Part shown: piece after piece, positions 13,326-21,120 of the stretch
Position numbering within the stretch: the first letter of the stretch is position 1
Layout of the letters: every line of letters starts with the position of its first letter
Source: a virus
Reading direction: 5' to 3' (one strand)
DNA length: 21,120 nucleotides
Virus record (IMG/VR): IMGVR_UViG_3300024252_000100
Coordinates: 1 to 21,120 of that record
Translations under genes and position numbers: made by a program
The notes under the pieces: generated by a model
Database searches by the model: none
What the model was told of the DNA's origin: nothing
Seen by the model: the letters and a program-made list of their open reading frames with translations, nothing else

Positions 13326-13353
13326 TGTAAAATTATGATTTTTGTCATATAAT
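13326..13353 (+). promoter_or_regulatory. Promoter, TGTAAA-N16-TATAAT, before thyX
   Basis: TGTAAA (13326-13331, wider GTGTAAA) and TATAAT (13348-13353) are 16 bases apart in the gap between endolysin and thyX. Transcription should start near 13360, followed by GAAAGG and ATG 13378. This placement shows that a TTG at 13342, in frame with thyX, is inside the promoter and is not the start. Confidence 0.75.
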
Positions 13354-13377
13354 CTTTATAACAAAGAAAGGATTTAT

Positions 13378-14079
13378 ATGACAAATACACATTATCTTTA
13401 TAACGATAATATAGGAAAAGTAGAACTAGTTCAAAGTATGGGAGAAGATATAACTGTTGTAAACTCAGCAAGAGTGTCTTTTGGTGTACAAAAAGACTTG
13501 TTAGATGAAAAAGATAAGAAACTAATAAATTATCTTATTAAACATAAACATACTTCAACTTTAGAACACAATGTTGCAACTTTTAGAATTAAGGTGCCTT
13601 TGTTTGTTAGATCACAACATCATAGACATAGAACTTGGTCTTATAATGAAGTAAGTAGACGATACACAGATGCAGATCTGCAGTTTTATATCCCTACAAG
13701 TTACAGAACACAACATAATTCAAATAGACAAGCTTCTAATTCTAATGATTTTATTAACCCTCAAATGGATGTATATAATATTGAATTAGAAAGTAGACTG
13801 TGCAATGAAGCAGTATCACATCATATTGACAACTCACTATTACTCTTTGAAGATATGATTAAAAAAGGTGTAGCAAGAGAGCAAGCAAGAATGATTCTCC
13901 CCCAGAATCTATACACAGAGTACTACGCTACAGCTAATCTAAATAACATATTAAAGTTTATTGAGTTAAGAACGCATGAAGGTGCGCAATGGGAAATACA
14001 GCAGCTAGCTAATTTAATGTTAAATATAGTAGAAGAAGTTTGGCCTGTGACTGTTTCTGCATATCGTTCTAAAAACTAG
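13378..14079 (+). CDS. thyX: Flavin-dependent thymidylate synthase ThyX (canonical copy)
   Basis: A 233-residue FAD- and NADPH-dependent enzyme making dTMP from dUMP. The ThyX signature is intact: RHRTWSYNEVSRRY (83-96), with the RHR flavin triad and E91, S93 and R95 for the dUMP phosphate. The second site is also conserved (RMILPQNLYTEYYATANL, then ELRTHEGAQWEIQQLA). Length matches the family. I chose ATG 13378 because GAAAGG lies just upstream and earlier in-frame codons fall in the promoter. It would use the dUMP made by the dUTPases in this window. A second, much altered ThyX lies 1.1 kb downstream. Confidence 0.92.
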   Translation: MTNTHYLYNDNIGKVELVQSMGEDITVVNSARVSFGVQKDLLDEKDKKLINYLIKHKHTSTLEHNVATFRIKVPLFVRSQHHRHRTWSYNEVSRRYTDADLQFYIPTSYRTQHNSNRQASNSNDFINPQMDVYNIELESRLCNEAVSHHIDNSLLLFEDMIKKGVAREQARMILPQNLYTEYYATANLNNILKFIELRTHEGAQWEIQQLANLMLNIVEEVWPVTVSAYRSKN

Positions 14080-15161: not shown

Positions 15162-16121
15162 TTGCCAATTAATAATAACTTAGAACCTGTATTGTTGCCT
15201 ATGGATCTTAAATTTGGACAAGATCCTGTAACTAATTACATTAATAACTTAGAGTCACTCAACATTGAAGTTGTAGATGCGCCTACGCAAGAACAAGCAC
15301 AAAAAATTGCTTGGAATATGACTAAGGCAACTTGGGCAGATTCACCTAGCGAAACTAGATTTGAGAATGCTTCTTTCAAAGAAGCTTCAAGTAATTTGCA
15401 AGATGTTTTAAACTTTAGAGCGTTACCTACACCTATGGAGTGTTTAGGTTTTACATTTAAGATAAGTGGTATTGATACACAGACTGTTACACATCTTATT
15501 CGACATAGAGCTGGATCATTTGCTGCACAATGCACAGGCGACAGAGACCTTCGAAATGACAACATTTTAGTTCCTGAATCTGTTGAAAATTCAGACTTCC
15601 ACAAGCGTTTTGTTGAAGTAGCTGCAGCAGCAAAGCAACTCTATTCAGATATGGTTGATTCACGTGTAGTTTCTTTAATGGACGCTAGAGTTATTCTTCC
15701 TAAGTCTCTTGAAACATTTTATATTGCTAGGTTTAATCTTAAAGATTTGATTGGATTTATTAAACAGCGTCAAGATATGCAAATCCAGCCTGAAGTGGAT
15801 AATATTATGGCTACACGTATTGCGAGATTAGTTGTTGAAAGAATTCCCGAGGTTGCTTCCTGTTTAGACTTTAACAAACCTGATATGCATTATGTGAGAA
15901 CTTTTAGAGTTGAACAACCTGATGGCACATTTACGTCCAAAGGAACAAATCTTTATCATCCTGAGACTAAGAACGATTTGTTTGAATTTAACGAAAACGA
16001 TTCGATCTATCAATGTCGTCGTGAAGAGATTAACGGGAATAAATCTGGTGAGGAAAAGATATTTACAAGAATGTGGAATGAAGACGTTGAATTTATCAAT
16101 TCAGTAAAAGATCAAATTTAA
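15162..16121 (+). CDS. Divergent ThyX-family protein (second copy)
   Basis: A 319-residue protein with the ThyX fold pattern but an altered active site. VTHLIRHRAGSF (109-120) keeps the RHR flavin triad. The following block reads AAQCTGDRDLR instead of NExSxRY, so the residues that hold dUMP in normal ThyX are changed (Glu to Gln or Ala, Ser to Thr or Cys, Arg to Asp or Gly depending on alignment). DARVILPKSLETFYIARFNL (173-192) and IKQRQDMQIQPEVDN match the C-terminal ThyX helix region. An extra ~80 residues at the end (DGTFTSKGTNLYHPE) are not typical. The start is TTG 15162, backed by AAGGAG (15149-15154). It may make a different pyrimidine or use another acceptor; dTMP synthesis is covered by the canonical copy. 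Confidence 0.7.
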   Translation: MPINNNLEPVLLPMDLKFGQDPVTNYINNLESLNIEVVDAPTQEQAQKIAWNMTKATWADSPSETRFENASFKEASSNLQDVLNFRALPTPMECLGFTFKISGIDTQTVTHLIRHRAGSFAAQCTGDRDLRNDNILVPESVENSDFHKRFVEVAAAAKQLYSDMVDSRVVSLMDARVILPKSLETFYIARFNLKDLIGFIKQRQDMQIQPEVDNIMATRIARLVVERIPEVASCLDFNKPDMHYVRTFRVEQPDGTFTSKGTNLYHPETKNDLFEFNENDSIYQCRREEINGNKSGEEKIFTRMWNEDVEFINSVKDQI

Positions 16122-19051: not shown

Positions 19052-19819
19052 ATGCCTAGAAAAAGTACACAAGTAACGTTGATATGCACAAATTGTGCTT
19101 GCGAATATAAAAAACTTGCATCAAGAGCAGAAAAATCAAAGTTCTGTTCTAAGTTATGTAAAGATAAAAAGTCAATACAATATAAGATTGAAAAATGTGT
19201 TAGCTGTCAAGAGGAGTTTAAATCTAAAAGAGGAAAGAAATATTGTTCTAGAGACTGTTATATCAAAGAGCACAAGCATGAAAGAATGGATTTGACTTGT
19301 GACTATTGTGGTGACACTTATCAGAAACCTGTCGGTAAGCCTACAAAATATTGTGGTAAACAATGTCAGTATAAGGCTCAAAGCAGCGGTTTACATGAAA
19401 TACCTTCAAATGGTAGGTTAGGTTTTAGATATGATTTGCCGAGCAATTACTTTTTTAAGTCATCTTTAGAGGCAGACTATGCGAGATGGTGTGAAGCTAC
19501 AAAAAAACCTTATGTTTATGAGCATAAAACATTTACAGTTCAATATGATGGAAGAGACAAGCAATATACTCCGGACTTTTATCATCCCGATGAGGATAGA
19601 TATGTAGAGTTAAAAGCAATAAGAAGAGATAGGAAGTTTAATTCTAATCTTCTAGCTGCAGATATTTTAAAGCAGCAAGGGCTTAATATCGACGTGTTAT
19701 TAATGCATGAATTTTATAAAATAATAAAACAAAGCGGGCATTATTGGACAGTTGACAATATAGAAAACAAAAATTATCATGGAACAAGAAGACTTATATA
19801 TCTCAAGAAAACACAGTAA
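19052..19819 (+). CDS. Zinc-finger PD-(D/E)XK endonuclease, probable free-standing homing endonuclease
   Basis: A 255-residue protein in two parts. Residues 1-110 hold three repeats of CxxC then CxxxC: C12/C15 with C32/C36, C49/C52 with C65/C69, C83/C86 with C101/C105, each able to bind zinc and contact DNA. Residues ~120-230 fit a PD-(D/E)XK nuclease: SSLEADYARWCE with Glu140, QYTPDFYHP with Asp175, and VELKAI with Glu186 and Lys188. The gene sits between a terminator-like hairpin and its own weak promoter, with a ribosome site folded into a hairpin, as for T4-type homing endonucleases. Alternatives are a phage repair or host-DNA-degrading nuclease. Start ATG 19052 has strong AAGGAG. The end overlaps the next gene by 41 bases. 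Confidence 0.7.
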   Translation: MPRKSTQVTLICTNCACEYKKLASRAEKSKFCSKLCKDKKSIQYKIEKCVSCQEEFKSKRGKKYCSRDCYIKEHKHERMDLTCDYCGDTYQKPVGKPTKYCGKQCQYKAQSSGLHEIPSNGRLGFRYDLPSNYFFKSSLEADYARWCEATKKPYVYEHKTFTVQYDGRDKQYTPDFYHPDEDRYVELKAIRRDRKFNSNLLAADILKQQGLNIDVLLMHEFYKIIKQSGHYWTVDNIENKNYHGTRRLIYLKKTQ

Positions 19820-20990
19820 AGGATTTGCGGCGTTAACTATAGTTTTGTTGGCTGCAGTCTTATCTATACTGTCATACACAGTAATACAATACGGGAGAAT
19901 CTCTCTTAATGTCATTGAAGAAAAACAAAGTTTAGATTCGTGCAGTGTAGGAGTAGGAAGAAGTATAATCAGCACAAACGATATTGAAAGTATTTGTTCT
20001 AGTGATTTTCTGAATAGCTGTAGTGGTCTTTTGAACATGCCTGTGCCGAACATGAGTTGTGTTGACGAAGGATTAGAGTGTGATGGTGTAGGTATATGTG
20101 AAAGAGTTTTTACTATATCATCTACGTACAATCCTGGTCGTGGAGAAGTTTCCAAGGATGTTATAGTTAAAGTCAAGGAAGAAGAGCATGATGTGAGTAT
20201 TGTAGACGCTGCTGTAATAATGTTACTTGACTTTAGCGGTTCTATGAATGGAAATAGAATTACACAGTTAAAAGACACAGTAAGGTCATTTATAGATTCT
20301 GATTATAATCTAAGTTACTCTGTTATTCTTTATAATAGCGACATTATAACAACATCAAATATTGGAAAAGGTCAGCAACACAAGCAATCTATACACACTA
20401 TGATTAACAGCAATAATCCTGGCGGTGGGACAAATTTTGTAAAGCCTTTGAACGAAGCATTAAATCAAATACAAACTAGCAATTACGAAGTATACTACAT
20501 ACTTTTGATAAGTGACGGCTCACCAAACGAAGGTATAGACTCTTCGCAAAACTTTGTTCAAAATAACGTATTAAACTTGAACAATGATGCATGTTTATTT
20601 ACTACATCACAAAATCCTTGTATCACAGTATATACTTTGGGTGTTGACAACGCAAACCAGAGTGCTTTGCAAAGTATAAGTGGAAATACTCTTAGTCAAA
20701 ATCCAGAAGAGTATAGTTACGCAGTCAATGCTAATCAAGTGCAATTAGCATTTCAAGCTATTATAGAAGAGATAATGTGTAGAATAGGACCGGTTTTAGC
20801 TGAGTTACCTATTAACGTATTTAATGGTTTAGACTTGTTAGATGAAAACATTGATTATGTATACAATGAAGATACAAAAGTGTTTAAGTTTTATGATGTT
20901 GATCCATTTTATATCTGTACTGAAATGTTGAATGATAGCGCACAATTAACTTTAAGATGGGGAGACGTGAATTTAAATGTTAGCGAGTAA
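19779..20990 (+). CDS. Membrane-anchored VWA-domain protein with pilin-like N-terminus
   Basis: A 403-residue protein. Residues 1-15 are charged (SRKHSKG), then FAALTIVLLAAVLSILSYTV (16-35) is a single membrane helix. The KG/F junction looks like a type IV prepilin cleavage site but lacks the usual Glu at +5. Residues ~50-135 contain at least six cysteines (55, 73, 81, 94, 101, 107), suggesting a disulfide-bonded extracytoplasmic part. From ~142 a von Willebrand factor A domain follows with a complete metal-ion adhesion site: LLDFSGSMN (D151, S153, S155), GGGTNF (T218) and ISDGSPNEG (D246). The last ~80 residues are beta-rich. It could be a surface adhesin, pilus-tip-like or pilus-blocking protein. 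ATG 19779 starts inside the nuclease gene with a weak ribosome site. Rare cargo for a phage; its role is unknown. Confidence 0.75.
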   Translation: MEQEDLYISRKHSKGFAALTIVLLAAVLSILSYTVIQYGRISLNVIEEKQSLDSCSVGVGRSIISTNDIESICSSDFLNSCSGLLNMPVPNMSCVDEGLECDGVGICERVFTISSTYNPGRGEVSKDVIVKVKEEEHDVSIVDAAVIMLLDFSGSMNGNRITQLKDTVRSFIDSDYNLSYSVILYNSDIITTSNIGKGQQHKQSIHTMINSNNPGGGTNFVKPLNEALNQIQTSNYEVYYILLISDGSPNEGIDSSQNFVQNNVLNLNNDACLFTTSQNPCITVYTLGVDNANQSALQSISGNTLSQNPEEYSYAVNANQVQLAFQAIIEEIMCRIGPVLAELPINVFNGLDLLDENIDYVYNEDTKVFKFYDVDPFYICTEMLNDSAQLTLRWGDVNLNVSE

Positions 20991-21120
20991 TGAAAACAAA
21001 CAAGAAGAGATACGATTTGTATCACAGTTAAACAAAGGTGATATTATCAATGTATTTTATCACGGAATGTGTATTAAAGAAAACTGCTTAATTGTAGAGA
21101 CTATTCAAGATCACTACTTT
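20977..21120 (+). CDS. Small SH3-like protein, 3'-partial
   Basis: ATG 20977 opens a frame that is still open at the end of the window (48 codons). It overlaps the VWA gene's stop by 14 bases. LNKGDIINVFYHGM (18-31), then CLIVETIQDHYF, repeats the G-D-x-[VI] strand plus V-[ED] strand seen in the proteins at 17090-18000. It is probably a further member of that group. The rest lies beyond the window. Confidence 0.5.
   Translation, partial: MLASNENKQEEIRFVSQLNKGDIINVFYHGMCIKENCLIVETIQDHYF

Follow-up and report, generated by a model that had tools for sequence, protein, structure and literature searches.

The window analyzed here, i.e., the whole 21,120-bp IMG/VR virus record IMGVR_UViG_3300024252_000100, carries a gene for a VWA protein of 403 amino acids, whose reading frame starts with ATG and is open throughout (Table 1). 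Its start overlaps by 41 nt the 3′ end of the upstream gene, c1; across the contigs compared, c1 always adjoins the VWA gene, save where genes of another kind, c0, come between. Elsewhere in the window, two ThyX-like thymidylate synthase paralogues (13342-14079 and 15162-16121) lie within 2 kb, and one copy is duplicated or split in some relatives.

Table 1. Features of the VWA gene and its two neighbors, with positions in the window
Feature	Position	Strand	Basis
Upstream gene c1, zinc-finger/endonuclease-like	19052..19819	+	phrog_1271/945 matches, synteny
CDS, 403 aa, very probable Tad-type (TadG/CpaL-like) minor pilin with VWA domain	19779..20990	+	
Pilin-like module, aa 1-139: predicted long helix and three-strand sheet (91-101, 107-117, 124-139)	19779..20195	+	AlphaFold2 model, cysteines
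Leader peptide, aa 1-15, ending in K-G	19779..19823	+	G/A at the aa 15 position in 34/34 homologues
Membrane helix/pilin alpha1-N, aa 16-40	19824..19898	+	Hydropathy maximum 2.4-2.8; helix 3-65 in model
VWA domain, aa 144-333	20208..20777	+	PF00092/PF13519, model, Foldseek
MIDAS motif D151-x-S153-x-S155	20229..20243	+	Kept in 34/34
MIDAS T218	20430..20432	+	Kept in 34/34
MIDAS D246	20514..20516	+	Kept in 34/34
C272-C281 loop	20592..20621	+	Alignment
C-terminal strand module, aa 334-403, with C334 and C380	20778..20987	+	Conserved in all Tad VWA relatives
Downstream gene c3, incomplete in the window, 74-79 aa in relatives	20977..21120	+	Co-conserved with the VWA gene

Regarding its N-terminus, the VWA protein begins with MEQEDLYISRKHSKG^FAALTIVLLAAVLSILSYTVIQYGR, namely a basic leader, K-G and then a hydrophobic stretch; K14-G15 directly precede the sole strongly hydrophobic stretch of the hydropathy profile, and position -1 is G or A in each of the 34 phage and bacterial homologues compared. 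The prepilin-peptidase site is presumed to fall between G15 and F16, and the single membrane helix should be oriented N-in, C-out because the leader is basic. The features of a class III leader (basic leader, G/A, N-terminal hydrophobic helix) are all present, while the stricter consensus quoted for CpaL, G/A-X4-F/E, is half matched: the G/A is there, and at +5 the presumed mature form has Thr, neither Glu nor Phe. At this position most pilins have Glu; the relatives have a hydrophobic residue or Thr, and the homologues of the bacterial Tad operons likewise lack Glu. Tip-capping subunits lack Glu5 (PMC10191384), and the non-Glu residue at +5 is consistent with such a subunit.

As for the central part of the protein, Pfam assigned it to VWA (PF00092, E = 1.7e-12, residues 146-316) and to VWA_2 (E = 2.3e-10), and the five residues of a complete MIDAS, D151, S153, S155, T218 and D246, are invariant across the 34 phage and bacterial homologues. 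The protein has exactly ten cysteines (55, 73, 81, 94, 101, 107, 272, 281, 334 and 380), the first six of them within the pilin-like module; all ten are invariant in 13 phage homologues and present throughout the main-clade phage homologues checked. Their distribution is nested: C73, C94, C334 and C380 are nearly universal among homologues, the C272-C281 loop is seen in the alignment only in phages and in the two closest bacterial Tad homologues, and C55, C81, C101 and C107 are restricted to the main phage clade. The class-III-signal-like start, single membrane helix, cysteine-rich segment and complete MIDAS that the original prediction had read from this sequence were thus confirmed by the reading frame, hydropathy, Pfam and the 34-sequence alignment.

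The first AlphaFold model, computed with phage sequences alone, was poor (pLDDT 63.8); after two bacterial homologues were added, the AlphaFold2 model reached a mean pLDDT of 76.8, with a moderate pTM of 0.68. It consists of a helix (3-65), strands 91-101, 107-117 and 124-139, the VWA domain and a C-terminal strand module. This order recalls that of CpaL, described by Charrouf et al. as a long helix with a three-strand sheet and then a VWA domain (PMC12607857), so that a CpaL-like pilin "lollipop" plus VWA layout is predicted for the phage protein. The prepilin-like anchor proposed originally holds as far as leader and helix are concerned; the prediction for the first ∼139 residues is a whole pilin module and not an anchor only. 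A Pfam scan of this N-terminal module alone against the PilX, Tad and TadE models gave no match. Foldseek against the PDB matched VWA proteins, including SpaC and Mfa5, both from pilus tips, and the minor pilin PilB of S. sanguinis, although these matches rest on the VWA domain and by themselves do not prove the pilin part. Foldseek against viral structures returned generic VWA proteins, and the PDB sequence search generic VWA domains only.

Among 84,980 bacterial and archaeal genomes, a scan that requires exact conserved peptides and is not exhaustive found the two nearest bacterial relatives, both from uncultured Myxococcota of the same class, one of them labeled Myxococcales. In both, a complete Tad operon closes with the gene of the homologue (L032:8645-9967 and L033:9965-11290). 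The L033 operon has Pfam matches for Peptidase_A24, TadE, RcpC/CpaB, Secretin, a ParA-type ATPase (TadZ), T2SSE (TadA), two T2SSF (TadB and TadC) and TPR; it ends with the TPR protein, then a small lipoprotein and then the VWA protein, and the L032 operon agrees with it from CpaB onward. The phage protein shares 36-37% identity with these two proteins and is colinear with them end to end, with the same N- and C-termini. More distant Myxococcota homologues exist, and in L038 and L040, inspected by eye, the genes before the VWA gene again encode a TPR protein and a small lipoprotein. These observations, together with the predicted fold of pilin module plus VWA as in CpaL, bear out the likeness to pilus-tip or minor pilin proteins noted originally; the minor-pilin reading stands, and the generic pilus can be narrowed to the Tad type. 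On both sequence and model, the phage-carried protein is very probably a Tad-type VWA minor pilin.

In the tree, which carries a long-branch warning, the main phage clade is separated by a branch at 100/99, and the phages, the more distant phage copy at L100 and the two bacteria are held together at 100/100 against the other Myxococcota Tad VWA proteins. The nesting of the cysteines parallels this grouping. Most simply, these sequences suggest that a Tad VWA gene was acquired from a bacterium related to those of L032/L033 and that the pilin module was then elaborated in a phage-specific way.

Homologues were found at 48 viral loci, with identities of 28 to 100%, by pattern-plus-tblastn scans of IMG/VR that returned 9, then 18 and then 48 loci; tblastn with the phage protein and a bacterial homologue as queries gave no match in 50,697 annotated phages. 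In nearly all loci the gene order thyX - deoxyribosyltransferase - small genes - epimerase - c1 - VWA - c3 is kept. The dN/dS ratio is 0.07-0.13 in eight of nine close phage pairs, the ninth having no synonymous difference; these ratios and the synteny conserved in dozens of contigs indicate a real, selected gene. A recent bacterial capture without any role in the phage would agree with the single bacterial origin that the tree makes likely; however, it is refuted by the selection and synteny data, since the position, the sequence and the dN/dS are maintained in phages that have diverged to about 45% identity, the gene cannot be a useless passenger of recent date, and this explanation is left with a negligible chance.

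Some loci show further variation around the gene. At L002:6965-7080, downstream of c3, some 100 bp remain from the 3′ end of a second, diverged VWA gene (CTEMLNNNSNITLRWGNPRFEVLD*); L003 and L004 have this remnant too, and L005 lacks it. A longer match in L002-L004 goes back to a short 3′ remnant of a second copy and not to a larger protein. The remnant suggests that one VWA allele was replaced by another via recombination. In some phages only, arrays of 5-9 paralogous c0 proteins of ∼150-163 aa, of no assigned family, lie beside the VWA gene or an amidase gene (L008:6799-9738, L009:6458-11991, L010:921-6219, L019:4959-8003 and L092); they look like variable surface or decoration proteins. Finally, a second, distantly related phage (L100:218-1471, in the 60.9-kb contig G303) has the same type of baseplate gene and a VWA pilin at 28% identity that has some features in common with the bacterial ones; it may represent a more ancient branch or a separate capture.

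At 239,550 bp, the largest record with the VWA gene carries an exact terminal repeat of 141 bp, which would be expected for a complete genome, and it is apparently the complete genome of a contractile-tailed phage. The VWA gene occupies 55.2-56.4 kb of this record, and genes related to those for terminase, portal, tail sheath and baseplate in the 133-kb contig span 97-160 kb, which leaves about 40 kb between the VWA gene and the closest virion gene; the VWA gene is therefore phage-borne and outside the virion block. This location bears on the possibility that the protein is a virion component, that is, a membrane- or tail-associated adhesin for host attachment. VWA domains do occur in phage tail proteins, for example in RcTitan gp22, encoded directly 3′ of the tape measure gene, and in a PaMx28 "virion structural protein", and in some contigs the gene is embedded in c0 arrays that could encode surface proteins. 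Nevertheless, the distance of about 40 kb from the terminase-portal-sheath-baseplate region speaks against such a role, in which a membrane helix with a prepilin site and Tad-operon homology would also be unexpected; gp22 has no such N-terminus. A virion component is accordingly rated as quite improbable, and the original view that the protein resembles pilus-tip or minor pilin proteins rather than known phage proteins agrees with the gene position, the negative search of annotated phages and the predicted N-terminal membrane helix.

A further question is whether the phages carry other parts of a Tad system. A search for Peptidase_A24 gave no match in nine phage records and was positive for both bacteria and for 12 of 14 control genomes. 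When all eleven proteins of the L033 Tad operon were compared by phmmer with the ORFs of the 74.8-, 107-, 133- and 239.5-kb contigs, the VWA protein was the sole credible relative; a TadA-like match in the phages (E about 0.002, to a protein of 249-250 aa) was weak and was judged a generic ATPase. As neither a prepilin peptidase nor any other Tad part was found in the phages searched, the host Tad system would be needed if the protein acts as a pilin, and with a single tip component in the phage, the partner minor pilins must be host-supplied. The original prediction had proposed to look for pilin-type partners or a MoxR-like ATPase; the former were not found in the four contigs, and the latter does exist, although away from the VWA gene. 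The neighbors of this gene in nearly all contigs are the endonuclease-like gene and a small gene, with no adjacent MoxR-type AAA+ ATPase. Elsewhere in the phage genome, a MoxR-like AAA+ ATPase is followed by a DUF2201 metallopeptidase/VWA-like protein (L022:13213-14829 and L059:2331-4701), and this position beside DUF2201 rules out a MoxR-VWA pair of the CoxE/CobT/ViaA type for the pilin-like protein.

Among known systems, the closest likeness in layout is with the TadG-type CpaL of Caulobacter crescentus (PMC12607857), which has a leader, a pilin module of ∼120 residues and a VWA domain with complete MIDAS in the same order, the tie to Tad pili and the predicted tip position. It differs in having two beta-rich domains inserted in the VWA domain, which the phage protein lacks; the latter has instead a short C-terminal strand module, extra cysteines and Thr in place of Glu/Phe at +5, and its gene sits in a phage without a Tad machine. 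The L032/L033 proteins are homologous to the phage protein over the full length and share the C272-C281 loop, but they belong to bacterial Tad operons, lack the four cysteines of the main phage clade and have a leader ending in G-G or L-G instead of K-G. The Tips of the Myxococcus Kil pilus, KilN/TadG (PMC12075869), are also large TadG-like minor pilins with an added distal domain, predicted disulfides and a place at a Tad tip; in contrast to the VWA of the phage protein, the distal domain of KilN4 is described as unlike any known structure, and the system serves bacterial predation. The relation with Rhodobacter phage RcTitan gp22, representing siphophage VWA tail proteins, is at the level of the VWA fold only, since gp22 is encoded in the tail gene block and has no membrane helix or prepilin leader.

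A phage-encoded minor pilin is known from Pseudomonas phage JBD68, whose P-FimU replaces the host FimU; JBD68 lysogens put the phage FimU into their own pili, which is thought to bar later infection with the pili still working (PMC12826054). Like the protein described here, P-FimU is a minor pilin encoded by a phage, and it enters the host pilus tip and alters its use as a phage receptor; it is, however, a small FimU-type pilin without VWA, of a type IVa pilus and a temperate Pseudomonas phage, whereas the present one is Tad-type and from a large contractile-tailed phage. The original statement that no such phage system had been described must therefore be restricted: P-FimU is the only phage minor pilin found described, and no description of a phage-encoded Tad tip protein was found in the open-access PMC literature.

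Taken together, the proposed explanation, for which the chances are put at about even, is that the phage gene encodes a captured Tad (type IVc) minor pilin of the TadG/CpaL kind that would be processed by the host, enter the tip of the host pilus and alter or stop the pilus, probably against superinfection; in it, the cleavage, the incorporation into host pili and the protective effect are the inferred parts. A large contractile-tailed phage would have taken the gene from a Myxococcota-like bacterium, with purifying selection since then. During infection, the protein would be inserted in the inner membrane, and the host prepilin peptidase would cleave it behind G15; in its mature form it would then join the host minor pilins at the Tad tip, displacing the host VWA subunit, and the tip would display the phage version of the VWA domain. 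Such a phage-variant or stalled tip might change the binding of the pilus or halt its cycling, and the payoff rated as most probable is that the infected cell would be shielded from further phages that adsorb via the pilus. For this payoff, P-FimU is a direct precedent among type IVa pili. In Caulobacter, loss of CpaL leads to partial phiCbK resistance and altered surface sensing (PMC12607857).

Two other outcomes of the same interaction have to be weighed. The protein might be a dominant-negative decoy that enters the Tad machine or titrates partners of the CpaJ/CpaK type, stopping pilus assembly or retraction; it would fit with a tip complex that primes assembly (PMC10191384, PMC13170226) and with the phage proteins Tip and Aqs1, which switch off type IVa pili (PMC12826054). 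Yet a decoy has no need of an intact MIDAS, whose five residues are all fully conserved, and it is argued that a VWA domain with intact MIDAS must bind something and not merely block assembly; a decoy is thus considered unlikely. The same conservation of MIDAS in every phage copy would suit a behavioral payoff, with the same entry into the pilus and a phage tip that suppresses surface sensing and attachment, so that cells stay planktonic and the progeny disperse. CpaL carries a VWA mechanosensor and negatively regulates the surface-sensing pathway and holdfast production (PMC12607857); on the other hand, nothing links the phage to a surface-sensing pathway, and the Caulobacter phenotype is that of a deletion, so that this payoff is as doubtful as the decoy.

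In broader terms, with tip replacement as the preferred reading, there is perhaps one chance in two that large marine phages of a widespread clade exchange the host Tad tip for a phage-made VWA mechanosensor or adhesin, thereby setting adhesion or phage entry. Phage-encoded minor pilins are already known, and what is new here is the pilus class, the VWA architecture and the phage type: the gene would extend the type IVa case to another class of pili and to large contractile-tailed phages, and, if tip replacement is true, it would give the first phage-controlled tip for Tad pili. Tad pili serve as phage receptors and as surface sensors, and only lately have the proteins at their tips been recognized as interchangeable functional heads; a tip protein that phages have preserved through deep divergence would offer a natural means of studying the function of the VWA domain at the Tad tip.

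As for the host, the gene predicts for this uncultured marine phage clade a Tad-bearing bacterium related to Myxococcota. The window, compared with 55 genomes of the same bacterial class in an uncontrolled search, gave no nucleotide, CRISPR-spacer or prophage-like match. By terminase and GroEL, the nearest cultured phages infect Flavobacterium or cyanobacteria and are only about 40% alike.

Other genes of these phages deserve mention. The GroEL-type chaperonin is encoded in the regions L021:11147-12784 and L022:6108-9728, where genes resembling IMP dehydrogenase, adenylosuccinate synthetase and adenylosuccinate lyase also occur. A gene similar to that of DNA polymerase III alpha is split by apparent inteins and homing-endonuclease ORFs at L005:14387-21209 and L020:770-5721, and it is continuous in L056. 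Finally, many phage proteins start with a short amphipathic motif (ITERRLRSLIRQVIKES, IRWLLTES, LIENYVKVFLNES) similar to capsid-targeting peptides, as at L020:5734-7704, L022:881-5748, L056:4560-10595 and L058:1229-14371; these proteins may be packaged in the head and injected, and some of the large ones carry a YHLT motif reminiscent of ADP-ribosyltransferases.
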